Source of the DNA: Lineus longissimus
Lineage: Eukaryota; Nemertea; Pilidiophora; Heteronemertea; Lineidae
Assembly: GCF_910592395.1 (NCBI RefSeq)
Contig: NC_088314.1
Location: forward strand, 17,703,998 to 17,767,997
Direction of reading: 5' to 3'
DNA length: 64,000 nucleotides
Shown here: positions 1 through 64,000 of the stretch, in pieces
Layout: each line of letters begins with the position of its first letter
How positions within the stretch are numbered: the stretch's first letter is position 1
Notes under the pieces: model-generated
The model's input: the letters and a program-made list of their open reading frames with translations, nothing else
The model's database searches: none
Told to the model about the DNA's origin: nothing
Program-made: the position numbers and the translations under genes

Positions 1-3000
1 TGCAGAACCAACCACAACTCTGGAGCCAACAACCACAGTAAAGCTGACTACAAGTGATAAACTAACCACGACTCTTGAGCTAACCACCACAGTGGAACCA
101 ACTACAACGGCAGAACCAACCACAACTCTTGAACCAACAACAACAGTGGAACCAACTACAACGGCAAAACCAACCACAACTCTTGAACCAACAACCACAG
201 TGGAACCAACTACAACTGCTGAACCAACCACAACTCTCGAGCCTACAACCACGGTGGAACCAACTACAACAGCGGAACCAACCACAACTCAGGAACCAAC
301 AACCACGGTGGAACCAACTACAACAGCGAAACCAACGACAACTCTGGAGCCAACAACCACGATGGAACCAACTACAACGACAGAACCAACCACAACTTTG
401 GAGCCTACAACCACTGCGGAACAAACTACAACTGCCGCACCAACCACAACTTTTGAGCAAACAACCACGATGAAACCAACTACAATTGATGAACCAACCA
501 CAACACTGGAACCAACAACCACAGTGGAACCAACTACAACGGCAGAACCAACCACAACTCTGCAGCCAACAACCACAATGGAACAAACCACCACTGCTGA
601 AGCAACCACAACTCTGGAACCAACTACCACAGTGGAACCAACTACAACTGCAGAACCAACCACAACTCTGGAGCCAACAACCACAGTAAAGCTGACTACA
701 AGTGATAAACTAACCACGACTCTTGAGCTAACCACCACAGTGGAACCAACTACAACGGCAGAACCAACCACAACTCTTGAACCAACAACCACAGTGGAAC
801 CAACTACAACAGCTGAACCAAGCACAACTCTGGAGCCTACAACCACGGTGGAACCAACTACAACAGCTGAACCAACCACAACTCTGGAGCCAAAAACCAC
901 AATGGAACCAACTACAACAGCTGAACCAACCACAACTTTGGAGCCTACAACCACTGCGGAACAAACTACAACTGCCCCACCAACCACAACTTTTGAGCAA
1001 ACAACCACGATGAAACCAACTACAATTGATGAACCAACCGCAACACTGGAACCAACAACCAGAGTGGAACAAACTACAACGGCAGAACCAACCACAACTC
1101 TGCAGCCAACAACCACAATGGAACAAACCACCACTGCTGAAGCAACCACAACTCTGGAACCAACTACCACAGTGGAACCAACTACAACTGCAGAACCAAC
1201 CACAACTCTGGAGCCAACAACCACAGTAAAGCTGACTACAAGTGATAAACTAACCACGACTCTTGAGCTAACCACCACAGTGGAACCAACTACAACGGCA
1301 GAACCAACCACAACTCTTGAACCAACAACAACAGTGGAACCAACTACAACGGCAAAACCAACCACAACTCTTGAACCAACAACCACAATAGAACCAACTA
1401 CAACTGCTGAACCAACCACAACTCTCGAGCCTACAACCACGGTGGAACCAACTACAACAGCGGAACCAACCACAACTCAGGAACCAACAAACACGGTGGA
1501 ACCAACTACAACAGCGAAACCAACGACAACTCTTGAGCCAACAACCACGATGGAACCAACTACAACGACAGAACCAACCACAACTTTGGAGCCTACAACC
1601 ACTGCGGAACAAACTACAACTGCCGCACCAACCACAACTTTTGAGCAAACAACCACGATGAAACCAACTACAATTGATGAACCAACCACAACACTGGAAC
1701 CAACAACCACAGTGGAACCAACTACAACGGCAGAACCAACCACAACTCTTGAACCAACAACCACAGTCGAACCAACTACAACTGCTGAACCAAGCACAAC
1801 TCAGGAACCTACAACCACGGTGGAACCAACTACAACAGCGGAACCAACCACAACTCTGCAGCCAACAACCACAATGGAACAAACCACCACTGCTGAAGCA
1901 ACCACAACTCTGGAACCAACTACCACAGTGGAACCAACTACAACTGCAGAACCAACCACAACTCTGGAGCCAACAACCACAGTAAAGCTGACTACAAGTG
2001 ATAAACTAACCACGACTCTTGAGCTAACCACCACAGTGGAACCAACTACAACGGCAGAACCAACCACAACTCTTGAACCAACAACCACAGTGGAACCAAC
2101 TACAACTGCTGAACCAAGCACAACTCTGAAGCCTACAACCACGGTGGAACTAACTACAACAGCTGAACCAACCACAACTCTGGAGCCAAAAACCACAATG
2201 GAACCAACTACAACGGCAGAACCAACCACAACTTTGGAGCTAACAACCACAGTGGAACCAACTACAACTGCTGAGGAAACCACCACTCTGGAGCCAACAA
2301 CCACAGTACAACCAACTACAACTGCTGAGGAAACCACCACTCTGGAGCCAACAACAACAGTGGAACCAACTACAACGGCAGAACCAACCACAACTCTTGA
2401 ACCAACAACCACAGTGGAACCAACTACAACTGCTGAACCAACCACAACTCTCGAGCCTACAACCACGTTGGAATCAACTACAACAGCGGAACCAACCACA
2501 ACTCAGGAACCAACAACCACGGTGGAACCAACTACAACAGCGGAACCAACGACAACTCTTGAGCCAACAACCACGATGGAACCAACTACAACGACAGAAC
2601 CAACCACAACGACAGAACCAACCACAACTTTGGAGCCTACAACCACTGCGGAACAAACTACAACTGCCGCACCAACCACAACTTTTGAGCAAACAACCAC
2701 GATGAAACCAACTACAATTGATGAACCAACCACAACACTGGAACCAACAACCACAGTGGAACCAACTACAACGGCAGAACCAACCACAACTCTGCAGCCA
2801 ACAACCACAATGGAACAAACCACCACTGCTGAAGCAACCACAACTCTGGAACCAACTACCACAGTGGAACCAACTACAACTGCAGAACCAACCACAACTC
2901 TGGAGCCAACAACCACAGTAAAGCTGACTACAAGTGATAAACTAACCACGACTCTTGAGCTAACCACCACAGTGGAACCAACTACAACGGCAGAACCAAC

Positions 3001-6000
3001 CACAACTCTGGAACCAACAACCACAGTGGAACCAACTACAACTGCAGAACCAACCACAACTCTGGAGCCAACAACCACAGTAAAGCTGACTACAAGTGAT
3101 AAACTAACCACGACTCTTGAGCTAACCACCACAGTGGAACCAACTACAACGGCAGAACCAACCACAACTCTTGAACCAACAACCACAGTGGAACCAACTA
3201 CAACAGCTGAACCAAGCACAACTCTGGAGCCTACAACCACGGTGGAACCAACTACAACAGCTGAACCAACCACAACTCTGGAGCCAAAAACCACAATGGA
3301 ACCAACTACAACGGCAGAACCAACCACAACTTTGGAGCTAACAACAACAGTGGAAGCAACTACAACTGCTGAGGAAACCACCACTCTGGAGCCAACAACC
3401 ACAGTACAACCAACTACAACTGCTGAGGAAACCACCACTCTGGAGCCAACAACAACAGTGGAACCAACTACAACGGCAGAACCAACCACAACTCTTGAAC
3501 CAACAACCACAGTGGAACCAACTACAACTGCTGAACCAACCACAACTCTCGAGCCTACAACCACGTTGGAACCAACTACAACAGCGGACCCAACCACAAC
3601 TCAGGAACCAACAACCACGGTGGAACCAACTACAACAGCGGAACCAACGACAACTCTTGAGCCAACAACCACGATGGAACCAACTACAACGACCGAACCA
3701 ACCACAACTTTGGAGCCTACAACCACTGCGGAACAAACTACAACTGCCGCACCAACCACAACTTTTGAGCAAACAACCACGATGAAACCAACTACAATTG
3801 ATGAACCAACCACAACACTGGAACCAACAACCACAGTGGAACCAACTACAACGGCAGAACCAACCACAACTCTTGAACCAACAACCACAGTTGAACCAAC
3901 TACAACTGCTGAACCAAGCACAACTCTGGAACATACAACCACGGTGGAACCAACTACAACAGCGGAACCAACCACAACTCTGGAACCAACAACCACAGTG
4001 GAACCAACTACAACAGCGGAACCAACCACAACTCTGCAGCCAACAACCACAATGGAACAAACCACCACTGCTGAAGCAACCACAACTCTGGAACCAACTA
4101 CCACAGTGGAACCAACTACAACGGCAGAACCAACCACAACTCTGCAGCCAACAACCACAATGGAACAAACCACCACTGCTGAAGCAACCACAACTCTGGA
4201 ACCAACTACCACAGTGGAACCAACTACAACTGCAGAACCAACCACAACTCTGGAGCCAACAACCACAGTAAAGCTGACTACAAGTGATAAACTAACCACG
4301 ACTCTTGAGTTAACCACCACAGTGGAACCAACTACAACGGCAGAACCAACCACAACTCTTGAACCAACAACAACAGTGGAACCAACTACAACGGCAAAAC
4401 CAACCACAACTCTTGAACCAACAACCACAGTGGAACCAACTACAACTGCTGAACCAACCACAACTCTCGAGCCTACAACCACGGTGGAACCAACTACAAC
4501 AGCGGAACCAACCACAACTCAGGAACCAACAACCACGGTGGAACCAACTACAACAGCGAAACCAACGACAACTCTGGAGCCAACAACCACGATGGAACCA
4601 ACTACAACGACAGAACCAACCACAACTTTGGAGCCTACAACCACTGCGGAACAAACTACAACTGCCGCACCAACCACAACTTTTGAGCAAACAACCACGA
4701 TGAAACCAACTACAATTGATGAACCAACCACAACACTGGAACCAACAACCACAGTGGAACCAACTACAACGGCAGAACCAACCACAACTCTGCAGCCAAC
4801 AACCACAATGGAACAAACCACCACTGCTGAAGCAACCACAACTCTGGAACCAACTACCACAGTGGAACCAACTACAACTGCAGAACCAACCACAACTCTG
4901 GAGCCAACAACCACAGTAAAGCTGACTACAAGTGATAAACTAACCACGACTCTTGAGCTAACCACCACAGTGGAACCAACTACAACGGCAGAACCAACCA
5001 CAACTCTTGAACCAACAACCACAGTGGAACCAACTACAACAGCTGAACCAAGCACAACTCTGGAGCCTACAACCACGGTGGAACCAACTACAACAGCTGA
5101 ACCAACCACAACTCTGGAGCCAAAAACCACAATGGAACCAACAACAACAGCAGAACCAACCACAACTTTGGAGCTAACAACAACAGTGGAAGCAACTACA
5201 ACTGCTGAGGAAACCACCACTCTGGAGCCAACAACCACAGTACAACCAACTACAACTGCTGAGGAAACCACCACTCTGGAGCCAACAACAACAGTGGAAC
5301 CAACTACAACGGCAGAACCAACCACAACTCTTGAACCAACAACCACAGTGGAACCAACTACAACTGCTGAACCAACCACAACTCTCGAGCCTACAACCAC
5401 GTTGGAACCAACTACAACAGTGGAACCAACCACAACTCAGGAACCAACAACCACGGTGGAACCAACTACAACAGCGGAACCAACGACAACTCTTGAGCCA
5501 ACAACCACGATGGAACCAACTACAACGACCGAACCAACCACAACTTTGGAGCCTACAACCACTGCGGAACAAACTACAACTGCCGCACCAACCACAACTT
5601 TTGAGCAAACAACCACGATGAAACCAACTACAATTGATGAACCAACCACAACACTGGAACCAACAACCACAGTGGAACCAACTACAACGGCAGAACCAAC
5701 CACAACTCTTGAACCAACAACCACAGTTGAACCAACTACAACTGCTGAACCAAGCACAACTCTGGAACATACAACCACGGTGGAACCAACTACAACAGCG
5801 GAACCAACCACAACTCTGGAACCAACAACCACAGTGGAACCAACTACAACAGCGGAACCAACCACAACTCTGCAGCCAACAACCACAATGGAACAAACCA
5901 CCACTGCTGAAGCAACCACAACTCTGGAACCAACTACCACAGTGGAACCAACTACAACTGCAGAACCAACCACAACTCTGGAGCTAACAACCACAGTAAA

Positions 6001-6060
6001 GCTGACTACAAGTGATAAACTAAGCACGACTCTTGAGCTAACCACCCCAGTGGAACCAAC
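1..6060 (+). repeat. 18-bp minisatellite with long higher-order units (mucin exon 1)
   Basis: This is an 18-bp unit coding six residues. The MKPTTIDEP marker falls at about 471, 1011, 1659, 2703, 3783, 4701 and 5619. The intervals of 540, 648, 1044, 1080, 918 and 918 bp are all exact multiples of 18. A second marker, VKLTTSDKL, recurs near 32, 686, 1226, 1982, 2918, 3082, 4268, 4916 and 5996. Blocks between markers are near copies with whole hexamers gained or lost. Confidence 0.85.
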
Positions 6061-6611
6061 TACACCTGCTGAGGAAACCACAACTCTGGAGTCTACAACC
6101 ACGGCGGAACCAACTTCTGCAGACGAACCAACCACAACTGTGGAGCCAGCAACCACGGTGGAACCAACTACAGCTGCTGAACAAACCACAACTCTGGAAC
6201 CAACAACCACAATGGAACCAACCACCACCGCTGAACCAACCACAACTCTGGAGCCAACTACAACGGTGGAACCAACTACAACAGTAGAACCAAAAACAAC
6301 TCTGGAGCTTACTACAACAGTGGAACTAACTACTAGACCTGAATTTACCACAACTCGGGAGCCTACCACCACAGTAGAATTAATTACTTCATCGGAACCA
6401 ACCACAACTGAGCAACTAACTACTACTGCTGAACCAACCAGCACTCTTGAGCTAACCACTCTTGAACGAACATCAACTCAGCAACCGACAACTACAATGG
6501 AGCATCTTACAACAGCCGATTCGACAACCACAGTGAAACTGACCACCACAGTTGATCCAACAACAACACTAGGCATGACAACAGTTGAGACGTACACCCT
6601 TCCGGAAAATG
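1..6611 (+). CDS. Mucin exon 1 (5' end outside the window), TTTxEP repeats
   Basis: The frame is open from base 2 to a donor at 6612 (aatg|gtaaat, phase 1), giving at least 2,203 codons. It encodes hexapeptides of the form EPTTTx, where x is mostly A, L, V or M; Thr is about half of all residues and Glu recurs every sixth. Longer repeat blocks are marked by the motifs MKPTTIDEP and VKLTTSDKL. From about 6060 the repeats decay (TTRPEF, TTSSEP, LERTSTQQP), and the exon ends in a motif shared with all the other mucin exons, MTTVETYTLPENG. The role is inferred to be an extended, densely O-glycosylated rod. Reading on past the donor gives a stop at 6652, which I treat as intron. Confidence 0.82.
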
Positions 6612-7249
6612 GTAAATTGATCAGTCGTCAGGAAAAGAAATTATTTTTATAAACAGAATTGAAAATCACTAGCTTTTTGGGGAGGGGATATTTTCTGAAG
6701 GGGGTGTCACTCCCAACGAAGGGGTATGCACATCCGTGAAATTAGAAAAATGTTATAGCCCTTTACGATAGGCAGATGAGCGTCTTTAATCCACGCGGGT
6801 GAGAAGTATGACCGTTCTATTTTGGTTCAAACTCGCGGATTACCACGCTTCTCCTGAGTGTCAATGTTGTGTTGTTAGCAAAGATTGTTACAGCAGAACG
6901 TTGGTTTAGCAATCCTATGGCTTTTTGCAGGCAAAGCTCTTTTGAATAGGGGTTAAAGAAAAGACCTCCGGCGTGGGCTCGCTGCTCTGTTAGAAAAAAA
7001 CCCCTATGCCGGCTTTTTCCGGAACGCAAATGTTTGGGCAGAGAGTTATAGCTGTATTTCAACTCCCTGAGTGACCCGCCCCCCCCTCCCCCTTCCTCCC
7101 AATACTTTAATGTAGAGACATAAGTTCAAATTCTTCTTCTCGTTCTGCGTTCGAAAATAGAGGTTCGTCATTTGAATTCAAATTAGTACATATCGTCTGA
7201 ATTTTATTTCCTGCCGCATGCAGCTAATAAATGTCGTTCTTATTTACAG
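6612..7249 (+). other. Intron, mucin exon 1 to SEA-1a
   Basis: Donor gtaaat and acceptor tatttacag. The 638 bp hold no convincing gene. A C-rich tract lies at 7075-7100. The sequence is unrelated by eye to the matching introns of later cassettes. Confidence 0.75.
7075..7100 (-). other. Possible G-quadruplex (C-rich on plus strand)
   Basis: The minus strand carries G runs of 3, 2, 5, 8 and 3 separated by one or two bases, which meets the usual pattern for a G-quadruplex; the plus strand could form an i-motif. It lies inside the first intron. Function is unknown. Confidence 0.4.
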
Positions 7250-7356
7250 TAACGACTCTCGACGGTTCGTTTCTTCTCCAGCAGAATTTTACAGATGACC
7301 TTTTCAATTCGTCATCAGATGCCTACCTTGAGCTCGAACAGGCCCTTCTTGATCTG
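7250..7356 (+). CDS. SEA domain 1, exon a
   Basis: Exon of 107 bp: phase 1 acceptor after tatttacag, phase 0 donor ctg|gtacgt. It encodes the N-terminal third of a SEA domain, with QQNFTDDLFNSSSDAY and LELEQALLDL. This matches the first helix region of SEA domains in MUC1 and MUC16, where a S/T-x-x-Y-x-E-L-like motif follows an N-glycosylated stretch. Two N-glycosylation sequons are visible (NFT, NSS). The protein differs from the later cassettes at several sites, so this is the most divergent SEA copy. Confidence 0.83.
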
Positions 7357-7660: not shown

Positions 7661-7728
7661 TTATCAGCAGCATTCAACGAGTCGGACCTGGCAGGCGATA
7701 TTGGAGCAATAACGATCCTTGGATTCGA
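7661..7728 (+). CDS. SEA domain 1, exon b
   Basis: 68-bp exon, phase 0 to phase 2 (ttcga|gtaagt). It encodes LSAAFNESDLAGDIGAITI followed by LGF, the second helix and first strand leading to the cleavage loop. It contains a third sequon, NES. Confidence 0.82.
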
Positions 7729-8240: not shown

Positions 8241-8410
8241 GGAAGGAAGCATCAGAGCAAGATTTAGACTTCTTCTGAAGATACTCGGTTCTTCAGATGA
8301 CGCAGCAACCGTGCAAGGATCAATTGGTGCGGCATTCGTTAATTATCTGAATAATCACCCAGGAATTGCAGCAAGGTTTAATGTGGATACAAACTCTATA
8401 ATTGTTGTAG
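8241..8410 (+). CDS. SEA domain 1, exon c (cleavage motif)
   Basis: 170-bp exon, phase 2 to phase 1 (gtag|gtaggt). It opens with EEGSIRARFRLLLK. The Gly-Ser corresponds to the G/S autoproteolysis point of SEA domains (FRPGSVVV in mucins). The rest, with LNNHPGIAARFNVDTNSIIV, forms the C-terminal helix and strand. Self-cleavage is inferred from family knowledge, not shown. Confidence 0.82.
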
Positions 8411-9557: not shown

Positions 9558-12500
9558 ACTGTCCTATTGAAAGCACAACAACGGCCAAACAATCCACTTC
9601 ACCTAACCCAACCACAACTGGAGACCAAAGAAGCACTGAGCACCTCACCACTACGCCAGAAGCAACCACAACTCTAGAGCCAACAACCACAGTGGAACCA
9701 ACTACTACTGCTGAACCAACCACAACTCTGGAGCCAACAACCACGATGGAATCAACTACAACTGCAGAACCAACCTCAACTCTGGAACCAACAACCTCAG
9801 TGGAACCAACTACAACTGCAGAACCAACCACAACTTTCGAGCCAACAACCACGATGGAACCAACTACAATGGCAGAACCAACCACAACTCTGGAGCCAAC
9901 AACCTCAGTGGAACCAACTACAACAGCAGAACCAACCATAACCTTCGAGCCAACTACCACAGTGGAACCAACTACAACTGCCGCACCAACCACAACTTTC
10001 GAGCCAACAACCACGATGGAACCAACTACAACGGCAGAACCAACCACAACTCAGGAGCCAACAACCTCAGTGGAACCAACTACAACGGCAGAACCAACCA
10101 CAACTTTGGAGCCAACTACCACAGTGGAACCAACCACAACTGCCGAACCAACCACAACTCTGCAACCATCAACCACAATTGAACCAACCACCACCGCTGA
10201 ACTAACCACAACTCTTGAGCCATCTACCACAGTGGAACCAACCACAACTGCTGAACCAACCACAACTCTGGAACCAACAACCACAATGGAAGCAACCACC
10301 ACCGCTGAAGCAACCGCCACTCTGGAGCCAACTACCACAGTGGAAACCACCACAACTGCAGAACCAACCACAACTCTGCAACCAACAACCACAATGGAAG
10401 CAACCACCACAGCTGAAGCAACCACCACTCTTGAGCAAACTACCACAGTGGAACCAACCACAACTGCCGAACCAACCACAACTCTGGAACCAACAACTAC
10501 AATGGAAGCAACCACCACCGCTGAAGCAACCACCACTCTGGAGCCAACTACCACAGTGGAACCAACCACAACTGCAGAACCAACCACAACTCTGGAACCA
10601 ACAACCACAATGGAACCAACCACCACAGCTGACGCAACCACAACTCTTGAGCCAACTACCACAGTGGAACCAACCACAACTGCTGAACCAACCACAACTC
10701 TGGAACCAACAACCACAATGGAAGCAACCACCACCGCTGAAGCAACCACCACTCTGGAGCCAACTACCACAGTGGAACCAACCACAACTGCTGAACCAAC
10801 CACAACTCTGGAACCAACAACCACAATGCAACCAACCACAACCGCTGAACCAACCACAACTCTTGAGCCAACTACCACATTGGAACCAACCACAACTGCC
10901 GAACCAACCACAACTCTGGAACCAACAACCACAATGGAAGCAACCACCACCGCTGAACCAACCACAACTCTTGAGCCAACTACCACAGTGGAACCAACCA
11001 CAACTGCCGAACCAACCACAACTCTGGAACCAACAACCACAATGGAACCAACCACCACCGCTGAACCAACCACAACTCTTGAGCCAACTACCACAGTGGA
11101 ACCAACCACAACTGCCGAACCAACCACAACTCTGGAACCAACAACCACAATGGAACCAACTACAACTGCCACACCAACCACAACACTGGAACCAACAACC
11201 ACAATGGAACCAACCACCACCGCTGAAGCAACCACAACTCTGGAGCAAACTACCACAGTGGAACCAACCACAACTCTGGAACCAGCAACCACAATGGAAC
11301 CAACCACCACCGCTGAAGCAACCACCACTCTGGAGCCAACTAGCACAGTGGAACCGACTACAACTGCTGCACCCACCACAACTTTGGAGCCAACAACCAC
11401 AATGGAACCAACTACAACTGCTGTACCAACCACAACACTGGAACTAACAACCACAATGGAACCAACCACAACAGCTGAAGCAACCACAACTCTGGAGCCA
11501 ACTTCCACAGTGGAACCAACCACAACTGCTGAACCAACCACAACTCTGGAACCAACAACCACAATGGAACCAACCACCACCGCTGAACCAACCACACCTC
11601 TGGAGCCAACAACCTCAGTGGAACCAACTACAACGGCAGAACCAACCACAACTCTGGAGCCAACAACCACAGTTGAACCAACTACAACGGCAGAACCAAC
11701 CACAACTCTGGAGCCAACAACCTCAGTGGAACCAACTACAACTGCCACACAAACCACAACTTTGGAGCCAACAACCACAGTTGAACCAACTACAACGGCA
11801 GAACCAACCACAACTCTGGAGCCAACAACCTCAGTGGAACCAACTACAACGGCAAAACCAACCACAACTGCAGTACCAACCACAACACTGGAACTAACAA
11901 CCACAATGGAAGCAACCACCACCGCTGAAGCATCCACAACTCTGGAGCCAACCACCACAGTGGAACCAACCACAACTTTGGAGCCAACCACCACAATGGA
12001 ACCAACCACAACTGCTGAACCAACCACAACTCTGGAACCAACAACAACAATGGAAGCAACCACCACCGCTGAACCAACCACAACTCTTGAGCCAACTACA
12101 ACAGTGGAACCAGCCACAACTGCTGAACCAACCACAACTCTGGAACCAACCACCACAATGGAACCCACTACAACGGCAGAACCGACCACAACTGCTGTAC
12201 CAACCACAACACTGGAACTAACAACCACAATGGAAGCAACCACCACCGCTGAACCAACCACAACTCTGGAGCCAACCACCACAGTGGAACCAACCACAAC
12301 TTTGGAGCCAACCACCACAATGGAACCAACCACAACTGCTGAACCAACCACAACTCTGGAACCAACAACAACAATGGAAGCAACCACCACCGCTGAACCA
12401 ACCACAACTCTTGAGCCAACTACAACAGTGGAACCAATCACAACTGCTGAACCAACCACAACACTGGAACTAACAACCACAATGGAAGCAACCACAACCG

Positions 12501-15500
12501 CTGAAGCAACCTCAACTCTGGAGCCAACAACCACAGTGGAACCAACTACAACTGCCGAACCAACCATAACTCTGAAACCAACAACCCCAATGGAAGCAAC
12601 CACCACCGCTGAACCAACCACAACTCTTGAGCCAACTACCACAGTGGAACCAACCACATCTGCTGAACCAACCACAACTCTGGAACCAACAACCACAATG
12701 GAACCAACCACCACCGCTGAACTAACCACAACTCTTGAGCCATCTACCACAGTGGAACCAACCACAACTACTGAACCAACCACAACTCTGGAACCAACAA
12801 CCACAATGGAAGCAACCACCACCGCTGAAGCAACCACCACTCTGGAGCCAACTACCACAGTGGAACCAACCACAACTGCCGAACCAACCACAACTCCGCA
12901 ACCAACAACCACAATGGAACCAACCACAACTGCTGAACCAACCACAACTCTGGAACCAACAACCACAATGGAAGCAACCACCACCGCTGAAGCAACCACC
13001 ACTCTGGAGCCAACTACCACAGTGGAACCAACCACAACTGCAGAACCAACCACAACTCTGCAACCAACAACCACAATTGAACCAACCACCACTGCTGAAC
13101 TAACCACAACTCTTGAGCCAACTACCACAGTGGAACCAACCACATCTGCTGAACCAACCACAACTCTGGAACCAACAACCACAATGGAACCAACCACCAC
13201 CGCTGAACTAACCACAACTCTTGAGCCATCTACCACAGTGGAACCAACCACAACTGCTGAACCAACCACAACTCTGGAACCAACAACCACAATGGAAGCA
13301 ACCACCACCGCTGAAGCAACCACCACTCTGGAGCCAACTACCACAGTGGAACCAACCACAACTGCCGAACCAACCACATCTCTGCAACCAACAACCACAA
13401 TGGAACCAACCACAACTGCTGAACCAACCACAACTCTGGAGCCAACCACCACAGTAGAACCAACCACAACTTTGGAGCCAACCACCACAATGGAACCAAC
13501 CACAACTGCTGAACCAACCACAACTCTGGAACCAATAACAACAATGGAAGCAACCACCACAGCTGAACCAACCACAACTCTTGAGCCAACTACAACAGTG
13601 GAACCAACCACAACTGCTGAACCAACCACAACACTGGAACTAACAACCACAATGGAAGCAACGACAACCGCTGAAGCAACCTCAACTCTGGAGCCAACAA
13701 CCACAGTGGAACCAACTACAACTGCCGAACCAACCACAACTCTGGAACCAACAACCCCAATGGAAGCAACCACCACCGCTGAACCAACCTCAACTCTTGA
13801 GCCAACTACCACAGTGGAACCAACCACATCTGCAGAACCAACCACAACTCTGGAACCAACAACCACAATGGAACCAACCACCACCGCTGAACTAACCACA
13901 ACTCTTGAGCCATCTACCACAGTGGAACCAACCACAACGGCTGAACCAACCACAACTCTGGAACCAACAACCACAATGGAAGCAACCACCACCGCTGAAG
14001 CAACCACCACTCTGGAGCCAACTACCACAGTGAAACCAACCACAACTGCCGAACCAACCACAACTCTGCAACCAACAACCACAATGGAACCAACCACAAC
14101 TGCTGAACCAACCACAACTCTGGAACCAACAACCAAAATGGAAGCAACCACCACCGCTGAAGCAACCACCACTCTGGAGCCAACTACCACAGTGGAACCA
14201 ACCACAACTGCAGAACCAACCACAACTCTGCAACCAACAACCACAATTGAACCAACCACCACCGCTGAACTAACCACAACTCTTGAGCCATCTACCACAG
14301 TGGAACCAACCACAACTGCTGCACCAACCACAACTCTGGAACCAACAACCACAATGGAACCAACCACCACCGCTGAACCAACCACAACTCTTGAGCCAAC
14401 TACCACAGTGGAACCAACCACAACTGCTGAACCCACCACAACTCTGGAACCAACAACCACAATGGAAGTAACCACCACCGCTGAAGCAACCACCACTCTG
14501 GAGCCAACTACCACAGTGGAACCAACCAGAACTGCAGAACCAACCACAACTCTGCAACCAACAACCACAATGGAAGCAACCACCACCGCTGAACCAACCA
14601 CAGCTCTTGAGCCAACTACCACAGTGGAACCAACCACAACTGCCGAACCAACCACAACTCTGGAACCAACAACCACAATGGAACCAACCACCACCGCTGA
14701 ACCAACCACAACTCTTGAGCCAACTACCACAGTGGAACCAACCACAACTGCTGAACCAACCACAACTCTGGAACCAACAACCACAATGGAAGCAACCACC
14801 ACCACTGAAGCAACCACCACTCTTGAGCCACCTACCACAGTGGAACCAACCACAACTGCTGAACCAACCACAACTCTGGAACCAACAACCACAATGGAAC
14901 CAACCACCACAGCTGAAGAAACCACCACTCTGGAGCCAACAACCACAGTGGAACCAACCACAACTGCCGAACCAACCACAACTCTGGAACCAACAACCAC
15001 AATGGAAGCAACCACCACCGCTGAACCAACCACAACTCTTGAGCCAACTACCACAGTGGAACCAACCACAACTGCCGAACCAACCACAACTCTGGAACCA
15101 ACAACCACAATCGAACCAACAACCACCGCTGAACCAACCACAACTCTTGAGCCAACTACCACAGTGGAACCAACCACAACTGCCGAACCAACCACAACTC
15201 TGGAACCAACAACCACAATGGAACCAACCACCACCGCTGAACCAACCACAACTCTTGAGCCAACTACCACAGTGGAACCAACCACAACTGCCGAACCAAC
15301 CACAACTCTGGAACCAACAACCACAATGGAACCAACCACCGCTGAACCAACCACAACTCTTGAGCCAACTACCACAGCGGAACCAACCACAACTGCTGAA
15401 CCAACCACAACTCTGGAACCAACAACCACAATGGAACCAACCACCACCGCTGAACCAACCACAACTCTTGAGCCAACTACCACAGTGGAACCAACCACAA

Positions 15501-49734: not shown

Positions 49735-52700
49735 ACTGTCCGACAGAGAGCACGACAAAAGTAGAACAGACCACTACACCTCAACCAACCACAACTAGAG
49801 TGGCAACACCAACAGTAGAGCTAACAACGACAGTGCCATCAACTACACTTGCCGAACCAACCACACCTGTAGAATTGACTACAACAGTGGAACCAATCAC
49901 GACAGTGAAACTAACCACAACGATGGACCCTACAACAACAATGGAACAAACAACTACAGCTAAACCAACCACAACTCTTGAGACAACAACCACCGTAGAA
50001 CCAACAACAACAGTTGAACCAACAACCACTGTGGAACCAACCACCACAGGTGAACCAACGACCTCAGTAGAACCAACTACCACAGTAGAACCAACAACCA
50101 CTGTGGAACAAACTACTACAACTGAAACCACAACAACTCTTGAGCCAACCACCACTGTGGAACCAACTACCACTGTTGAACCAACAACCTTTGTGGAACC
50201 AACGACCATAGTTGAACCAACAACAACTTTTGAGCCAACATCAACAAATGAACCGACTACCACAGCAGAATTAACAACCACTGCCGAGTCAACAACAACA
50301 GTCGAACCAACGACTTCAGTAGAACCAACTACCACTGTAGAACAAACAACAACAGTTGAACCAACAACCACTGTGGAACAAACTACTACAGCTGAACCAA
50401 CAACAACTCTTCAGCCAGCCACCACATTGGAACTGACTACCACAGTTGAACCAACAACCACTGTGGAACCAATCACCACAGTTGAACCAACAACAAGTTC
50501 TGAGCCAACATCAACAAATGAATTGACTACTACAGCAGAATTAACAACCACTTTGGAGCAAACTTCCACTGCTGAACCAACCACAACTCTTCAACCAACA
50601 ACTACATTGGAACCAACGACCACAGTTGAACCAACCACAACTCTTGAGCCAACGTCCACAGTTGAACCGACTACTACAGTTGAACCAACAACTACATCTC
50701 AACCGACTACAACGCTGGAGCCTACAACAACAGTGGAACCAACTTCAACAGCGGAACCAACCACAACTCTTGAATCAACAACTACACTGGAACCAACTAC
50801 AACGCTGGAGCCAACAACCACAGTAGACCCAACAACTACAGTGGAACCAACAACCACAACTCAGGACCCAACTACTACTGCTGAACAAACCACAACTCTT
50901 GAACCAACAACTACATTGGAACCAACAACAACAGTTGAACCAACATCCACAGTTGAATCGACTACTACAGTTGAACCAACAACTACATCTGAACCAACTA
51001 CAACGCGGGAGCCTACAACAACACTGGTACCAACCACTACAGCGGAACCTACAACCACAACTCAGGATCCAATTACTACTGCTGAACAAACAACACCTCT
51101 TAAGCCAACAACCACAGTCGATCCAACAACTTCAGTAGAACCAACTACGACCGTAGAACCAACAACCACAGTTGAACCAAAAACCACTGTGGAACAAACT
51201 ACTACAGCTGAACCAACAACAACTCTTGAGCCAACCACCACTGTGGAACCAACTACGACAGTTGAACCAACAACCACTGTGGAACCAACAACCACAGTTG
51301 AACCAACAACAAGTTCTGAGCCAACATCAACAAATGACTTGACTACTACAGCAGAATTAACAACCACTGCAGAGCAAACTTCCACTGCTGAACCAACCAC
51401 AACTCTTCAACCAACAACTACATTGGAACCAACGACCACAGTTGAACCAACCACAACTCTTGAGCCAACGTCCACAGTTGAACAAACTACTACAGTTGAA
51501 CCAACAACTACATCTGAACGAACTACAACGCTGGAGCCTACAACAACAGTGGAACCAACTTCAACAAAGGAACCAACCACAACTCTTGAGCCAACGTCCA
51601 CAGTTGAACAAACTACTACAGTTGAACCAACAACTACATCCGAACCAACCACAACGCTGGAGCCTACAACAACAGTGGAACCAACTTCAACAGTGGAACC
51701 AACCACAACTCTTGAATCAACAACTACACTGGAACCGACTACAACGCTGGAGCCAACAACCACAGTAGACCCAACAACTACAGTGGAACCAATAACCACA
51801 ACTCAGGACCCAACTACTACTTCTGAAAAAACCACAACTCTTGAACCAACAACTACATTGGAACCAACAACAACAGTTGAACCAACATCCACAGTTGAAT
51901 CGACTACTACAGTTGAACCAACAACTACATCTGAACCAACTACAACGCGGGAGCCTACAACAACACTGGTACCAACCACTACAGCGGAACCTACAACCAC
52001 AACTCAGGATCCAATTACTACTGCTGAACAAACAACACCTCTTAAGCCAACAACCACAGTCGATCCAACAACTTCAGTAGAACCAACTACGACCGTAGAA
52101 CCAACAACCACAGTTGAACCAAAAACCACTGTGGAACAAACTACTACAGCTGAACCAACAACAACTCTTGAGCCAACCACCACTGTGGAACCAACTACGA
52201 CAGTTGAACCAACAACCACTGTGGAACCAACAACCACAGTTGAACCAACAACAAGTTCTGAGCCAACATCAACAAATGACTTGACTACTACAGCAGAATT
52301 AACAACCACTGCAGAGCAAACTTCCACTGCTGAACCAACCACAACTCTTCAACCAACAACTACATTGGAACCAACGACCACAGTTGAACCAACCACAACT
52401 CTTGAGCCAACGTCCACAGTTGAACAAACTACTACAGTTGAACCAACAATTACATCTGAACGAACTACAACGCTGGAGCCTACAACAACAGTGGAACCAA
52501 CTTCAACAAAGGAACCAACCACAACTCTTGAGCCAACGTCCACAGTTGAACAAACTACTACAGTTGAACCAACAACTACATCCGAACCAACCACAACGCT
52601 GGAGCCTACAACAACAGTGGAACCAACTTCAACAGTGGAACCAACCACAACTCTTGAATCAACAACTACACTGGAACCGACTACAACGCTGGAGCCAACA

Positions 52701-55700
52701 ACCACAGTAGACCCAACAACTACAGTGGAACCAATAACCACAACTCAGGACCCAACTACTACTTCTGAAAAAACCACAACTCTTGAACCAACAACTACAT
52801 TGGAACCAACAACAACAGTTGAACCAACATCCACAGTTGAATCGACTACTACAGTTGAACCAACAACTACATCTGAACCAACTACAACGCGAGAGCCTAC
52901 AACCACACTGGTACCAACCACTACAGCGGAACCTACAACCACAACTCAGGATCCAACTACTACTGCTGAACAAACAACACCTCTTAAGCCAACAACCACA
53001 GTCGAACCAACAACTTCAGTAGAACAAACTACGACCGTAGAACCAACAACCACAGTTGAACCAAAAACCACTGTGGAACAAACTACTACAGCTGAACCAA
53101 CAACAACTCTTGAGCCAAGCACCACTGTGGAACCAACTACCACTGTTGAACCAACAACCACAGTGGAACCAACCACCACAGGTGAACCAACGACCTCAGT
53201 AGAACCAACTACCACAGTAGAACCAACAACCACTGTGGAACAAACTACTACAACTGAAACCACAACAACTCTTGAGCCAACCGCCACTGTGGAACCAACT
53301 ACCACTGTTGAACCAACAACCACTGTAGAACCAACGACCACAGTTGAACCAACAACAACTTTTGAGCCAACATCAACAAATGAACCGACTACCACAGTCG
53401 AACCAACGATCTCAGTAGAACCAACTACCACTGTAGAACAAACAACAACAGTTGAACCAACAACCACTGTGGAACAAACTACTACAGCTGAACGCACAAC
53501 AACTCTTGAGCCAGCCAAAACTTTGGAACCAACTACCACAGTTGAACCAACAACCACTGTGGAACCAACCACCACAGTTGAACCAACAACAAGTTCTGAG
53601 CCAACATCAACAAATGAATTGACTACTACAGCAGAATTAACAACCACTGGGGAGCAAACTTCCACTGCTGAACCAACCACAACTCTTCAACCAACAACTA
53701 CATTGGAACCAACGACCACAGTTGAACCAACCACAACTCTTGAGCCAACGTCACCAGTTGAACCGACTACTACAGTTGAACCAACAACTACATCTGAACC
53801 GACTACAACGCTGGAGCCTACAACAACAGTGGAACCAACTTCAACAGCGGAACCAACCACAACTCTTGAATCAACAACTACACTGGAACCAACTACAACG
53901 CTGGAGCCAACAACCACAGTAGACCCAACAACTACAGTGGAATCAACAACCACAACTCAGGACCCAACTACTACTGCTGAACAAACCACAACTCTTGAAC
54001 CAACAACTACATTGGAACCAACAACAACAGTTGAACTAACATCATCAGTTGAATTGACTACTACAGTTGAACCAACAACTACATCTGAACCAACTACAAC
54101 GCGGGAGCTTACAACCACACTGGTACCAACCATTACAGCGGAACCTACAACCACAACTCAGGATCCAATTACTACTGCTGAACAAACAACACCTCTTAAG
54201 CCAACAACCACAGTCGAACCAACAACTTCAGTAGAACCAACTACGACCGTAGAACCAACAACCACAGTTGAACCAAAAACCACTATGGAACAAACTACTA
54301 CAGCTGAACCAACAACAACTCTTGAGCCAACCACCACTGTGGAACCAACTACGACAGTTGAACCAACAACCACTGTGGAACCAACCACCACAGTTGAACC
54401 AACATTCACAGTTGAAGCGACTACTACAGTTGAACCAACAACTATATCTGAACTAACTACAACGCTGGAGACTACAACTACAGTGGAACCAACTTCAACA
54501 GCGGAACCAACCGCAACTCTTGAACCAACAACTACATTGGAACCAACTACAACGCGGGAGCCTACAACCACACTGGTACCAACAGCTACAGCGGAACCAA
54601 CAACCACAATTCGGGAGTCAACTACTACTGCTGAACAAACCTCAACTCTTGAGCCAACAACCACAGTCAAACCAACGACCTCAGTAGAACCAACTACCAC
54701 CATAGAACCATCAACCACAGTTGAACCAACAACCATCGTTGAAGAAACTACTACAGCTGAACCCACAACTACATCTGAACCAACTACAACGCTGGAGCCT
54801 ACAACTACCGTGGAACCAACTTCAACAGCGGAACCAACCACAACTCTTGAACCAACAACTACACTGGAACCAACGACCACAGTTGAAACATCATCCACAG
54901 TTGAACCGACTTCTACAAGTGAACCAACAACTACATCTGAACCAACAACAAGGCTGGAGCCTACAACTACAGTGGAACCAACTTCAACAGCGGAACCAAC
55001 CACAACTCTTGAACCAACAACTACAATGGAACCAACAACCACAGTTGAACCAACATCCACAGTTGAACCGACTTCTACAGTTGAACCAACAACTACATCT
55101 GAACCAACTACAACGCTGGAGCCTACAACTACAGTGGAACCAACTTCAACAGAGGAACCAACCACAACTCTTGAGCCATTATCCACAGTTGAACCGACAA
55201 CTACAGTTGAACCAACAACTACTTCTGAACCAACTACAAAGCTAGAGACTACAATTTCCGTGGAACCAACTTCACCAGCTGAACGAACCACAACTCTTGA
55301 ACCAACAACTACACTGGAACCAACGACCACAGTTGAACCAACATCCACAGTTGAACCAACTTCTACAGTTGAACCAACAACTACATCTAAACCAACTACA
55401 ACGCTGGAGCCTACAACTACAATGGAACCAACTTCAACAGCGGAACCAACCACAATTCTTGAACCAACAACTACACTGGAACCAACGACCACAGTTGAAC
55501 CAACATCCACAGTTGAACCAACATCCACAGTTGAATCGACTACTACAGTTGAACCAACAACTACATCTGAACCAACTACAACGCGGGAGCCTACAACCAC
55601 ACTTGTACCAACAACTACAGCGGAACCAACAACCACAACTCAGGATCTAACTACTACTGCTGAACAAACCACAAATCTTGAGCCAACAACCACAGTCGAA

Positions 55701-56727
55701 CCAACAACCTCAGTAGAACCAACTACGACCGTAGAACCAACAACCACAGTTGAACCAACAACCACTGTGGAACAAACTACTACAGCTGAACCAACAACAA
55801 CTCTTGAGCCAACCACCACTCTAGAACCAACTACCACAGTTGAACCAACAACCACTGTGGAACCAACCACCACAGTTGAACCAACAACAAGTTTTGAGCC
55901 AACATCAACAAATGACTTGACTACTACAGCAGAATTAACAACCACTGCAGAGCCAACTACCACTGCTGAACCAACTACAACTCTTCAACCAACAACTACA
56001 TTGGAACCAACGACCACAGTTGAACCAACCACAACTCTTGAGCCAACGTCCACAGTTGAACCGACTACTACAGTTGAACCAACAACTACATTTGAACCAA
56101 CTACAACGCTGGAGCCTACAACCACACTCGTACCAACAACTACAGCGGAACCAAAAACCACAACTCAGGAGCCAACTACTACTGCTGAACAAACCTCAAC
56201 TCTTGAGCCAACAACCACAGTCAAACCAACGACCTTAGTTGTACCAATGACCACCGTAGAACCAACAACCACAGTTGAACCAACAACCAGTGTGGAACAA
56301 ACTACTAAAGCTGAACGCACAACAACTCTTGAGCCAGCCACCACTGTGGAACCAACTACCACAGTTGAGCCATCAACCACTGTGGAACCAACCACCACAG
56401 TTGAACCGACCACAACTCTTAAGCCAACATCCACAGTTGAACCGACTACTACAGTTGAACCAACAACTACAGCTGAGCAAACTACAATGCTGGAGCTTAC
56501 AACCGAAGTGGAACCAACAACAGTGGAACCAACAACCACTCAAGAGCCAACTACTACAGCTGAACCAACCACAACTCTTGAACCGACAACTTTAGCAGAA
56601 GTAACTACTACAGCTGTCGATACAACCTCTCTGGAACCAACAACTACAGCTGAACCAACTACGACAGTGCAGCAAACAACTTCTCAAGCAATGACAACGG
56701 TTGAGACCTTTACTCCTGCTGAAAATG
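49735..56727 (+). CDS. Mucin exon 6, 2,331 codons
   Basis: 6,993 bp, phase 1 to 1. The first part matches exon 5 at an offset of 12,370 bp and exon 7 at 9,248 bp. A 942-bp unit is repeated about two and a half times from about 50762 to 53116. Downstream lie S-rich blocks (EPTSTVEPTSTVEPTTTSEP) and a 3' end like exon 5 (EPTTLAEVTTTAVDTTSL, then MTTVETFTPAENG). Two shortened hexamers near the end (EVEPTTVEPTTTQEP) mark it and the related end of exon 7 off from exons 4 and 5. Confidence 0.85.
50762..53116 (+). repeat. 942-bp tandem repeat inside mucin exon 6
   Basis: Copies begin near 50762, 51704 and 52646; the third is cut off at about 53116, where it changes to AGC ACC ACT. The period of 942 bp is 314 codons, so the frame is kept. 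The unit includes TTESTTTLEP-, TTTTQDP- and TTPLKPTTTVDP-like blocks. Copies differ at a few bases. Confidence 0.85.
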
Positions 56728-56860: not shown

Positions 56861-56967
56861 AGACGTCTTTTGAGGCTTCTTTCAGCCTTACGCAAAACTT
56901 TACTGAAGATCTTTTGAATTCATCATCTGATGCATACGTGCAACTTGAACAGGAGTCCCTTGATATG
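56861..56967 (+). CDS. SEA domain 6, exon a (type II)
   Basis: Same protein as SEA-4 and SEA-5 exon a, phase 1 to 0. Confidence 0.84.
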
Positions 56968-57193: not shown

Positions 57194-57261
57194 CTGTATG
57201 CTTCATACAATGAGTCTGACCTGGCAGAAGACGTGGAAGAAATAACAATCCTTGGATTCGA
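57194..57261 (+). CDS. SEA domain 6, exon b (type II)
   Basis: Begins CTG TAT where the sister copies have TTA TAT; both encode Leu-Tyr, so the protein is the same. Phase 0 to 2. Confidence 0.83.
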
Positions 57262-57546: not shown

Positions 57547-57716
57547 GGAAGGGAGTATTAGAATTAGATTCCGGCTTCTTCTGAGGAGGCTTATTTCTGC
57601 CGCAGAATCATCAACCATACAAGGATCAATTGGTACTGGGTTAGTGAATTACCTTAATAACAACCCACGAATTGCTGCAAGATTCAATGTTGATACCAGC
57701 TCTATAACTGTTACAG
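57547..57716 (+). CDS. SEA domain 6, exon c (type II, cleavage motif)
   Basis: Same as 35929-36098 with EEGSIRIRF, phase 2 to 1. Confidence 0.84.
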
Positions 57717-58982: not shown

Positions 58983-61900
58983 ACTGTCCGACAGAGAGCA
59001 CGACAAAAGTAGAACAGACCACTACACCTCAACCAACCACAACTAGAGTGGCAACACCAACAGTAGAGCTAACAACGACAGTGCCATCAACTACACTTGC
59101 CGAACCAACCACACCTGTAGAATTGACTACAACAGTGGAACCTATTACGACAGTGAAACTAACCACAACGATGGACCCTACAACAACAATGGAACAAACT
59201 ACTACAGCTAAACCAACCACAACTCTTGAGACAACAACCACCGTAGAACCAACAACAACAGTTGAACCAACAACCACTGTGGAACCAACCACCACAGGTG
59301 AACCAACGACCTCAGTAGAACCAGCTACCACAGTAGAACCAACAACCACTGTGGAACAAACTACTACAACTGAAACCACAACAACTCTTGAGCCAAACAC
59401 CACTGTGGAACCAACTACCACTGTTGAACCAACAACCTTTGTGGAACCAACGACCACAGTTGAACCAACAACAACTTTTGAGCCAACATCAACAAATGAA
59501 CCGACTACCACAGCAGAATTAACAACCACTGCCGAGTCAACAACAACAGTCGAACCAACGACTTCAGTAGAACCAACTACCACTGTAGAACAAACAACAA
59601 CAGTTGAACCAACAACCATTGTGGAACAAACTACTACAGCTGAACCAACAACAACTCTTCAGCCAGCCACCACATTGGAACTGACTACCACAGTTGAACC
59701 AACAACCACTGTGGAACCAATCACCACAGTTGAACCAACAACAAGTTCTGAGCCAACATCAACAAATGAATTGACCACTACAGCAGAATTAACAACCACT
59801 TTGGAGCAAACTTCCACTGCTGAACCAACCACAACTCTTCAACCAACAACTACATTGGAACCAACGACCACAGTTGAACCAACCACAACTCTTGAGCCAA
59901 CGTCCACAGTTGAACCGACTACTACAGTTGAACCAACAACTACATCTCAACCGACTACAACGCTGGAGCCTACAACAACAGTGGAACCAACTTCAACAGC
60001 GGAACCAACCACAACTCTTGAATCAACAACTACACTGGAACCAACTACAACGCTGGAGCCAACAACCACAGTAGACCCAACAACTACAGTGGAACCAACA
60101 ACCACAACTCAGGACCCAACTACTACTGCTGAACAAACCACAACTCTTGAACCAACAACTACATTGGAACCAACAACAACAGTTGAACTAACATCCACAG
60201 TTGAATCGACTACTACAGTTGAACCAACAACTACATCTGAACCAACTACAACGCGGGAGCCTACAACAACACTGGTACCAACCACTACAGCGGAACCTAC
60301 AACCACAACTCAGGATACAATTACTACTGCTGAACAAACAACACATCTTAAGCCAACAACCACAGTCGATCCAACAACTTCAGTAGAACCAACTACGACC
60401 GTAGAACCAACAACCACAGTTGAACCAAAAACCACTGTGGAACAAACTACTACAGCTGAACCAACAACAACTCTTGAGCCAACCACCACTGTGGAACCAA
60501 CTACAACAGTTGAACCAACAACCACTGTGGAACCAACAACCACAGTTGAACCAACAACAAGTTCTGAGCCAACATCAACAAATGACTTGACTACTACAGC
60601 AGAATTAACAACCACTGCAGAGCAAACTTCCACTGCTGAACCAACCACAACTCTTCGACCAACAACTACATTGGAACCAACGACCACAGTTGAACCAACC
60701 ACAACTCTTGAGCCAACGTCCACAGTTGAACAAACTACTACAGTTGAACCAACAACTACATCTCAACCAACTACAACGCTGGAGCCTACAACAACAGTGG
60801 AACCAACTTCAACAAAGGAACCAACCACAACTCTTGAGCCAACGTCCACAGTTGAACAAACTACTACAGTTGAACCAACAACTACATCCGAACCAACCAC
60901 AACGCTGGAGCCTACAACAACAGTGGAACCAACTTCAACAGTGGAACCAACCACAACTCTTGAATCAACAACTACACTGGAACCGACTACAACGCTGGAG
61001 CAAACAACCACAGTAGACCCAACAACTACAGTGGAACCAATAACCACAACTCAGGACCCAACTACTACTGCTGAAAAAACCACAACTCTTGAACCAACAA
61101 CTACATTGGAACCAACAACAACAGTTGAACCAACATCCACAGTTGAATCGACTACTACAGTTGAACCAACAACTACATCTGAACCAACTACAACGCGAGA
61201 GCCTACAACCACACTGGTACCAACCACTACAGTGGAACCTACAACCACAACTCAGGATCCAACTACTACTGCTGAACAAACAACACCACTTAAGCCAACA
61301 ACCACAGTCGAACCAACAACTTCAGTAGAACAAACTACGACCGTAGAACCAACAACCACAGTTGAACCAACAACCACTGTGGAACAAACTACTACAACTG
61401 AAACCACAACAACTCTTGAGCCAACCGCCACTGTGGAACCAACTACCACTGTTGAACCAAGAACCACTGTAGAACCAACGACCACAGTTGAACCAACAAC
61501 AACTTTTGAGCCAACATCAACAAATGAACCGACTACCACAGCAGATTTAACAACCACTGCCGAGCCAACAACAACAGTCGAACCAACGATCTCAGTAGAA
61601 CCAACTACCACTGTAGAACAAACAACAACAGTTGAACCAACAACCACTGTGGAACAAACTACTACAGCTGAACGCACAACAACTCTTGAGCCAGCCACCA
61701 CTTTGGAACCAACTACCACAGTTGAACCAACAACCACTGTGGAACCAACCACCACAGTTGAACCAACAACAAGTTCTGAGCCAACATCAACAAATGAATT
61801 GACTACTACAGCAGAATTAACAACCACTGGGGAGCAAACTTCCACTGCTGAACCAACCACAACTCTTCAACCAACAACTACATTGGAACCAACGACCACA

Positions 61901-63929
61901 GTTGAACCAACCACAACTCTTGAGCCAACGTCCACAGTTGAACCGACTACTACAGTTGAACCAACAACTACATCTGAACCGACTACAACGCTGGAGCCTA
62001 CAACAACAGTGGAACCAACTTCAACAGCGGAACCAACCACAACTCTTGAATCAACAACTACACTGGAACCAACTACAACGCTGGAGCCAACAACCACAGT
62101 AGACCCAACAACTACAGTGGAATCAACAACCACAACTCAGGACCCAACTACTACTGCTGAACAAACCACAACTCTTGAACCAACAACTACATTGGAACCA
62201 ACAACAACAGTTGAACCAACATCCACAGTTGAATCAACTACTACAGTTGAACCAACAACTACATCTGAACCAACTACAACGCGGGAGCCTACAACCACAC
62301 TGGTACCAACCATTACAGCGGAACCTACAACCACAACTCAGGATCCAACTACTACTGCTGAACATACAACACCTCTTAAGCCAATAACCACAGTCGAACC
62401 AACAACTTCAGTGGAACCAACTACGACCGTAGAACCAACAACCACAGTTGAACCAACAACCATCGTTGAAGAAACTACTACAGCTGAACCCACAACTACA
62501 TCTGAACCAACTACAACGCTGGAGCCTACAACTACCGTGGAACCAACTTCAACACCGGAACCAACCACAACTCTTGAACCAACAACTACACTGGAACCAA
62601 CGACCACAGTTGAAACATCATCCACAGTTGACCCGACTTCTACAAGTGAACCAACAACTACATCTGAACCAACAACAAGGCTGGAGCCTACAACTACAGT
62701 GGAACCAACTTCAACAGCGGAACCAACCACAACTCTTGAACCAACAACTACAATGGAACCAACAACCACAGTTGAACCAACATCCACAGTTGAACCGACT
62801 TCTACAGTTGAACCAACAACTACATCTGAACCAACTACAACGCTGGAGCCTACAACTACAGTGGAACCAACTTCAACAGAGGAACCAACCACAACTCTTG
62901 AGCCATTATCCACAGTTGAACCGACAACTACAGTTGAACCAACAACTACTTCTGAACCAACTACAAAGCTAGAGACTACAACTTCCGTGGAACCAACTTC
63001 ACCAGCCGAACGAACCACAACTCTTGAACCAACAACTACACTGGAACCAACGACCACAGTTGAACCAACATCCACAGTTGAACCGACTTCTACAGTTGAA
63101 CCAACAACTACATCTGAACCAACTACAACGCTGGAGCCTACAACTACAATGGAACCAACTTCAACAGCGGAACCAACCACAATTCTTGAACCAACAACTA
63201 CACTGGAACCAACGACCACAGTTGAACCAACATCCACAGTTGAACCAACATCCACAGTTGAATCGACTACTACAGTTGAACCAACAACTACATCTGAACC
63301 AACTACAACGCGGGAGCCTACAACCACACTGGTACCAACAACTACAGCGGAACCAACAACCACAACTCAGGATCTAACTACTACTGCTCAACAAACCACA
63401 AATCTTGAGCCAACAACCACAGTCGAACCAACAACCTCAGTAAAACCAACTACGACCGTAGAACCAACAACCACAGTTGAACCAACAACCACTGTGGAAC
63501 AAACTACTACAGCTGAACCAACAACAACTCTTGAGCCAGCCACCACTGTGGAACCAACTACCACAGTTGAACCATCAACCACTGTGGAACCAACCACCAC
63601 AGTTGAACCGACAACAACTCTTAAGCCAACATCCACAGTTGAACCGACTACTACAGTTGAACCAACAACTACAGCTGAGCAAACTACAATGCTGGAGCCT
63701 ACAACCGAAGTGGAACCAACAACAGCGGAACCAACAACCACTCAAGAGCCAACTACTACAGCTGAACCAACCACAACTCTTGAACCGACAACTTTAGCAG
63801 AAGTAACTACTACAGCTGTCGATACAACCTCTCTGGAACCAACAACTACAGCTGAACCAACTACGACAGTGCAGCAAACAACTTCTCAAGCAATGACAAC
63901 GGTTGAGACCTTTACTCCTGCTGAAAATG
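58983..63929 (+). CDS. Mucin exon 7, 1,649 codons
   Basis: 4,947 bp, phase 1 to 1, the shortest complete mucin exon. It starts DCPTESTTKVEQTTTPQP. Its first 1.3 kb follow exon 6 at a 9,248-bp offset, but it carries fewer copies of the 942-bp unit. The 3' part again resembles exon 6 (TSEPTTRLEPTTTVEP, LEPLSTVEP, then EPTTLAEVTTTAVDTTSL) and it ends MTTVETFTPAENG with donor gtatgc at 63930. The gene must continue, because the donor is intact and a SEA exon is expected just outside the window. Confidence 0.84.
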
Positions 63930-64000
63930 GTATGCCATTTTTGTGTAATATTAGACTGCTTTAAAAAATGTTCATTTAGTTGCTTATTCTCTGCACCGAT
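63930..64000 (+). other. Intron after mucin exon 7 (cut by window end)
   Basis: It copies the first 71 bp of the 133-bp type II intron, except that ctttacagatg in the sister copies reads ctttaaaaaatg here. The expected SEA exon would begin about 60 bp past the window end. Confidence 0.7.

Follow-up and report, generated by a model that had tools for sequence, protein, structure and literature searches.

A stretch of the Lineus longissimus genome that looks like the middle of a single gene encoding a mucin of about 27,800 residues

Introduction

Do the very long threonine-rich reading frames that lie in series in the genome of the nemertean Lineus longissimus belong to one gene, and if so, how large a protein would it encode? 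The stretch considered here (the window) comprises 64,000 nucleotides, positions 17,703,998-17,767,997 of contig C7 (RefSeq NC_088314.1), and carries seven stop-to-stop frames of 1,666-3,408 amino acids on the + strand, built from an EPTTTx-type repeat. Between these mucin frames lie three short exons that jointly encode a SEA domain, plus one cysteine-rich exon. A first-pass annotation of the window had proposed a single mucin gene of more than 17,000 residues that runs past both window edges and exceeds human MUC16, for which the UniProt reference has about 14,500 residues. We took in 100 kb of flanking sequence on each side, re-derived the splice sites from the sequence and searched the genome (391 Mb, 30 contigs); all gene-structure results come from this analysis of genomic DNA. 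On this basis, the window looks like the central part of a single animal gene whose product would be a mucin of about 27,800 residues. Coordinates are counted from window position 1, with negative numbers upstream of the window and numbers above 64,000 downstream.

Results

A continuous reading frame through and beyond the window

Splicing at the re-derived sites joined 31 exons across 30 introns of the window into 52,253 nt, that is 17,417 codons with no stop and with consistent splice phases, reproducing the frame of about 52.25 kb, kept at every junction, that had first been proposed. Both gene ends lie beyond the window, again as proposed: coding sequence reaches 34.6 kb or more upstream and ends downstream in a TAA at +81,099. 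The full model, which lacks only a start exon, consists of 75 exons and 83,490 nt, its sole stop being the last codon, and encodes a polypeptide of ~2.93 MDa. All 75 acceptors have AG and all 74 donors GT, and the internal phases are phase 1 in 50 cases, phase 0 in 12 and phase 2 in 12. Counted from the first coding exon that is certain, the gene spans ~116 kb to its stop, or ~124 kb with a candidate first exon considered below, and ten poly(A)-type hexamers follow the stop at 81,770-83,928. A single mucin gene of more than 17,000 residues thus remains the best reading of the sequence, lengthened by the flanks to 27,829 residues. We put the probability at about 0.68 that this is one gene for a single-pass type II membrane mucin of at least that length, grown by cassette duplication; all of its cassettes would then be joined into one mRNA.

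The 5' part of the model encodes a tail with the motif FDNPIF, a membrane helix, a linker, SEA 1, SEA 2, a 65-residue mucin exon and SEA 3. These are followed by PAN-like exon 1, the mucin exon MUCb, 17 Ig exons, the mucin exon M1 and eight SEA-PAN-like-mucin cassettes, giving nine giant threonine-rich mucin exons with eight SEA-PAN-like units between them. Fourteen of the 17 Ig exons before M1 measure 273 nt; the ninth also holds the start of SEA 4, which sits after Ig9 inside the Ig series. Mucin sequence totals 24,068 residues in the model, 49.5% of them threonine or serine and 13.4% proline. The chain is firm over the 24,455 residues between M1 and the stop, and also between the helix exon and Ig17; the link between Ig17 and M1 is the weakest inner step.

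The third exon of SEA 1 is present in two 167-nt copies (-31402..-31236 and -31191..-31025) that share 37 of their 55 residues and 116 of their 167 bases. Since both run from phase 2 to phase 1 and joint use would break the frame, they are likely mutually exclusive alternative exons.

Evidence for coding

The 11 mucin exons hold no internal stop in the coding frame, compared to 527 and 1,570 for the two remaining forward frames. This openness is weaker evidence than it appears, because the composition of the repeat also leaves one antisense frame nearly open in several mucin exons, with 0-341 antisense stops per frame and exon and an antisense open reading frame (ORF) of 2,483 amino acids. Antisense coding was rejected, as the long antisense ORF follows from the repeat and the matching antisense frames hold stops in most mucin exons. 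Intron read-through, considered as a source of alternative hydrophobic tails for M4-M6, was also rejected: such tails are absent in M7, where read-through stops earlier.

Conservation of exons relative to introns, the ratio of nonsynonymous to synonymous change (dN/dS) in SEA exons and the consistent splice phases are stronger evidence for coding than openness. In the pair of cassettes 5 and 6, identity is 77.6, 85.3 and 89.4% for the three SEA exons and 97.3% for the PAN-like exon. SEA dN/dS, at 0.25, 0.22 and 0.18 for cassette pairs 5/6, 5/8 and 6/8, shows selection on the SEA exons. The five introns of cassettes 5/6 are 63.5-71.1% identical over ungapped columns, with many gaps, compared to 62.5-70.7% for one shuffle each. 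The view that they are no better than shuffled sequence was dropped, since in a comparison with 200 shuffles three of the five exceeded every shuffle and, of the other two, one was matched or beaten by 2 shuffles and the other by 19; this residual likeness is greatest in the PAN-to-mucin intron and far below that of the exons. Among recent duplicates, mostly of mucin sequence, 101 of 241 coding changes are synonymous over nine overlapping comparisons, compared to 29% of random changes in M5.

Synonymous distance between cassettes 5 and 6 is 0.05 for the PAN-like exons and 0.41 for the SEA exons. As the former lies so far below the value for SEA exons of the same cassettes, it suggests that PAN-like exons have been homogenised between cassettes, as if by gene conversion. 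Likeness between cassettes is greater for the PAN-like exons P2, P3 and P5 and for nearby introns than for the SEA exons.

Identity of the domains

Five pieces of the protein, with 3 of the 17 Ig exons, 2 of the 8 late cassettes and 6 SEA units, were scanned against Pfam. SEA scored above the cut-off in all five (best E = 8.1e-24, with two stretches), and Ig_3 reached E = 5.9e-32 in the Ig piece; 6 of the 12 SEA units in the model lie within the scanned pieces, the remainder having been assigned by similarity. No VWD or cystine-knot domain, features of gel-forming mucins, was among the Pfam matches of these five pieces.

The exons first annotated as PAN are part of the splice model, but the label is insecure: PAN_4 gave 17.7 bits where 27 are needed (E = 0.0037) and PAN_1 gave E = 0.015, both below the cut-off. 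The structure predicted for this unit had a mean predicted local distance difference test score of 59, and a fold search with this low-confidence model returned no match at E<=0.001. A search of the genome returned 15 matches, of which the top nine are the nine PAN-like exons of the model. Elsewhere, a distant PAN-like exon, 47% identical, lies on contig C9 (15,420,103-15,420,318), where the 3.2 kb read contained no mucin-type ORF, and weaker matches occur on C2, C19, C10 and other parts of C7. Searches of a protein collection gave nothing at E<=10 among 72 candidates for the SEA-PAN cassette and 7,453 for the N-terminal piece, a weak absence, as relatives of very different length cannot be candidates.

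The predicted membrane anchor and a paralogue on contig C6

The top hydropathy peak of the protein, 2.86, lies at residues 95-113, and the next, 2.08, in SEA 4. Because basic residues precede the helix (RKYFTRTR) and neutral to acidic ones follow, hydropathy and charge predict a cytoplasmic N-terminus, that is, type II topology. A C-terminal membrane helix with a cytoplasmic tail was not found in the model, in which the last exon encodes repeat and then TAA and no other peak exceeds 2.08; an unseen alternative last exon may carry such a helix.

Searched in the genome at E<=1, the tail exon and the helix exon each matched a single further site. Both sites lie on contig C6, ~3.4 kb apart, with 70% (tail) and 63% (helix) identity over the matched parts. 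Within ~0.8 kb of the C6 helix follow SEA 1, then SEA 2 and a mucin exon of a different repeat (read by eye; the start of SEA 2a is a profile match). The same order of tail, helix, SEA, SEA and mucin in two loci is the best evidence that these elements would belong to one gene. The C6 paralogue region (18,027,721-18,060,233) holds further SEA and cysteine-rich units beyond them. FDNPIF falls in the part of the tail conserved with C6, and we take it to resemble an endocytosis signal of the low-density lipoprotein receptor type.

The autoproteolysis site of SEA domains is of the GS[IV]VV type. A motif check of the 12 SEA units found GSIIV in SEA 3 and 4, GSIRA or GSIRI in SEA 5-12, and no GSI-type motif in SEA 1 and 2; SEA 2 carries RRKR.

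Splice sites and poly(A) signals

Splice sites were scored against one another in a leave-one-out manner, with identical sites left out. The donor median is 9.1 bits, and the weakest donor, at 1.2 bits, is that of the tail exon. The first-pass annotation had seen no start, stop or poly(A) structure interrupting the series; this stands for stops, with none in frame, whereas AATAAA/ATTAAA hexamers are present in the introns without being enriched (23 in the 11,676 bp of window introns, compared to 22.7 expected from 100 Markov resamplings).

Proposed growth by cassette duplication

By age the cassettes form three classes: cassette 5, cassettes 6 and 7, and cassettes 8 to 12. The gene would have grown by tandem duplication of a SEA-PAN-like-mucin cassette, whose uniform phase-1 boundaries would permit duplication without damage to the frame.

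Discussion

Several observations weigh against a single gene of this size, for which the evidence is genomic throughout. The M1 acceptor is the weakest of all 75, at 3.5 bits compared to a median of 11.6 and 5.6 for the next weakest, and just above 3.2 bits, the 95th percentile for all AG dinucleotides of the region. The 493-bp gap between Ig17 and M1 (-7813..-7321) holds three AATAAA where 1.4 are expected, a count reached in 164 of 1000 resamplings; given these hexamers, a short isoform ending after Ig17 is possible. At the 5' end, the tail exon has no in-frame ATG before the helix except one near its own end, and a strict scan for a start exon found none. A looser scan, which asked for an ATG, a phase-0 end and agreement at 7 or more of 9 donor positions, returned six rows within 15.4 kb, from which an exon at -42,435 to -42,352, encoding 28 mostly charged residues, was picked by eye. 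It is a candidate only, would give 27,857 residues and, searched in the genome, matched its own locus only. Decay of the cassette 5/6 introns is incomplete, with a faint likeness retained, dN/dS of the PAN-like exons is 0.49, 0.61 and 0.74 on few changes, and the synonymous share per duplicate pair is mixed, from 0/3 and 12/42 to 45/77. Finally, the tandem blocks are 99.3-100% identical, and their copy number depends on the assembly.

The weak M1 acceptor and the three hexamers would also suit two units, a type II SEA-Ig membrane protein ending after Ig17 (~3,374 residues) and a mucin gene or promoter of its own starting in the M1 region and giving ~24,455 residues; in the C6 paralogue, tail, helix, SEA and mucin are seen together but the Ig-to-M1 step is not. 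We consider this arrangement unlikely: a phase-compatible acceptor is present at the right place for M1, the open frame of M1 starts LLIVTYICHMLYMSTTTAEPTTT without an evident signal peptide, the gap is short for a 3' untranslated region plus a promoter, and hexamers are not significantly enriched in it. Alternatively, cassettes of one gene might often be skipped, making the typical protein shorter and variable, as would be allowed by the phase-1 ends of every cassette unit and is reminiscent of the duplicated, mutually exclusive-looking SEA 1c exons. This seems doubtful, as no weak sites occur at the PAN-like to mucin junctions, the ones picked out in the first-pass annotation, where in 8/8 cases donors score 6.9 and acceptors 8.8-15.5 bits.

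The gene could also be real but much shorter, its near-identical tandem blocks having been multiplied by the assembly or drawn from one haplotype. Linkers 2 and 3 are indeed 99.96% identical over 2,778 bp. Over the ungapped stretches that were found, identity is 99.9-100% for the block of ~4.1 kb in M1 and for the tandem repeats of M5 (step 4,461 bp) and M9 (step 2,241 bp); such blocks may be recent or assembly effects. However, linkers 4-8 are 97.5-99.2% identical pairwise, thus differing by 0.8-2.5%, and the mucin exons differ in length, which argues that the cassettes are not copies of one read. Moreover, collapsing the four most alike blocks, by removing one copy each of the M1, M5 and M9 repeats and one 8.6-kb cassette, still leaves 22,011-22,065 residues, so that we regard a much shorter gene as very unlikely.

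For the single type II mucin, the following arrangement is proposed. The short N-terminal tail with FDNPIF would be cytoplasmic and one helix would cross the membrane, with SEA domains just outside it and the 17 Ig domains serving as a stalk. Beyond the Ig domains, the nine giant mucin exons and eight SEA-PAN-like units would form a glycosylated brush several micrometres long (~6 micrometres if each of the 24,068 residues is assumed to add 0.25 nm), and GSIIV in SEA 3/4 and RRKR in SEA 2 could allow this brush to be shed. From such sequence features we infer topology, glycosylation, shedding and a role as surface barrier or trap. That all of this holds together, as the largest mucin yet predicted, N-anchored in type II orientation, with an Ig stalk, a free mucin C-terminus and a ~6 micrometre brush sheddable at SEA or furin-type sites, cassette-grown in one gene, is a proposition we regard as evenly balanced.

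The gene has features of tethered SEA mucins, namely proline-, threonine- and serine-rich (PTS) or threonine-rich domains, SEA domains and a helix, and it lacks the type I C-terminal anchor. Its N-terminal tail, membrane helix and SEA just outside the membrane recall matriptase, enteropeptidase and HAT/TMPRSS11; unlike those proteins, it has a huge mucin ectodomain and no protease domain among the Pfam matches of the five pieces. The best solved-structure sequence match of the cassette SEA is the SEA region of ADGRF1, which is not significant (E = 0.099), and no G-protein-coupled receptor part is present here. As first claimed, the window alone exceeds the UniProt length of MUC16. The full model tops both that length and the 22,152 residues given for human MUC16 in excerpts of two reviews (PMC11101557; PMC7564553), which the window alone does not reach. 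In the excerpt of the former, MUC16 is a type I protein with a C-terminal membrane anchor and, in a figure legend, 16 SEA modules; the likeness lies in a giant tethered, threonine/serine-rich mucin with many SEA modules (PMC11101557). Unlike MUC16, the present protein has its helix near the N-terminus, mucin repeat at the C-terminus, 17 Ig and nine PAN-like units, and 27,829 residues. Invertebrate SEA mucins with PTS regions are also represented by mucin1-like and mucin4-like of a sea anemone, the former described as having a signal peptide, a single SEA and a C-terminal membrane helix (PMC9080433). A narrow literature search, by title and abstract start, found no mucin of this architecture.

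MUC16 has been termed the largest mucin ever discovered, in the excerpt cited above (PMC11101557). If our reading is true, the nemertean protein would be longer than the published MUC16 figure and among the largest proteins of any kind. Titin is longer, at some 34,000-35,000 residues. The reading would also imply that a giant surface brush can be anchored in the reverse membrane orientation and that uniform-phase cassette duplication can build proteins of such size, and it would make testable how cells make, fold and secrete one chain of 24,000 mucin residues.

Exon coordinates and neighbouring sequence

Table 1 Exons of the model within the window and selected exons beyond it (M, mucin exon; P, PAN-like exon).
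Feature	Position	Strand	Basis and remarks
Tail exon	-34574..-34370	+	splice model
Membrane-helix exon	-33957..-33808	+	splice model
MUCb	-26394..-23215	+	splice model; 1,060 residues
M1, 3' part	1..6611	+	open frame, donor phase 1; whole exon -7320..6611, 4,644 residues
SEA 5 exon a	7250..7356	+	AG/GT, phase 1 to 0; SEA E=1.2e-7 for spliced piece
SEA 5 exon b	7661..7728	+	AG/GT
SEA 5 exon c	8241..8410	+	AG/GT, motif GSIRA
P2	8887..9108	+	phase 1-1; PAN_4 match below cut-off (E=0.0037)
M2	9558..17615	+	phase 1-1, 0 stops in frame
SEA 6 exon a	18035..18141	+	splice model
SEA 6 exon b	18547..18614	+	splice model
SEA 6 exon c	18960..19129	+	splice model
P3	19727..19948	+	splice model
M3	20297..26251	+	splice model
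SEA 7 exon a	26672..26778	+	splice model
SEA 7 exon b	27184..27251	+	splice model
SEA 7 exon c	27597..27766	+	splice model
P4	28364..28585	+	splice model
M4	28934..35110	+	splice model
SEA 8 exon a	35244..35350	+	splice model; SEA E=1e-8 for spliced piece
SEA 8 exon b	35577..35644	+	splice model
SEA 8 exon c	35929..36098	+	splice model
P5	36752..36973	+	splice model
M5	37365..47474	+	splice model
SEA 9 exon a	47608..47714	+	splice model, profile match position
SEA 9 exon b	47941..48008	+	splice model
SEA 9 exon c	48294..48463	+	splice model
P6	49122..49343	+	splice model
M6	49735..56727	+	splice model
SEA 10 exon a	56861..56967	+	splice model
SEA 10 exon b	57194..57261	+	splice model
SEA 10 exon c	57547..57716	+	splice model
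P7	58370..58591	+	splice model
M7	58983..63929	+	splice model; two further cassettes and stop (+81,099) beyond window
SEA 11, SEA 12, P8, P9	downstream of M7	+	two further cassettes in splice model
M8	66186-69905	+	splice model
M9	72161-81099	+	splice model; ends in TAA

Two tandem pairs of similar ORFs of 315-341 amino acids lie upstream at -61559..-51957; three of these four were scanned and had no Pfam match at E<=0.001. Among the eight flank ORFs scanned against Pfam, one gave a match at that threshold, a CELSR-like cadherin from 113.7 kb on.

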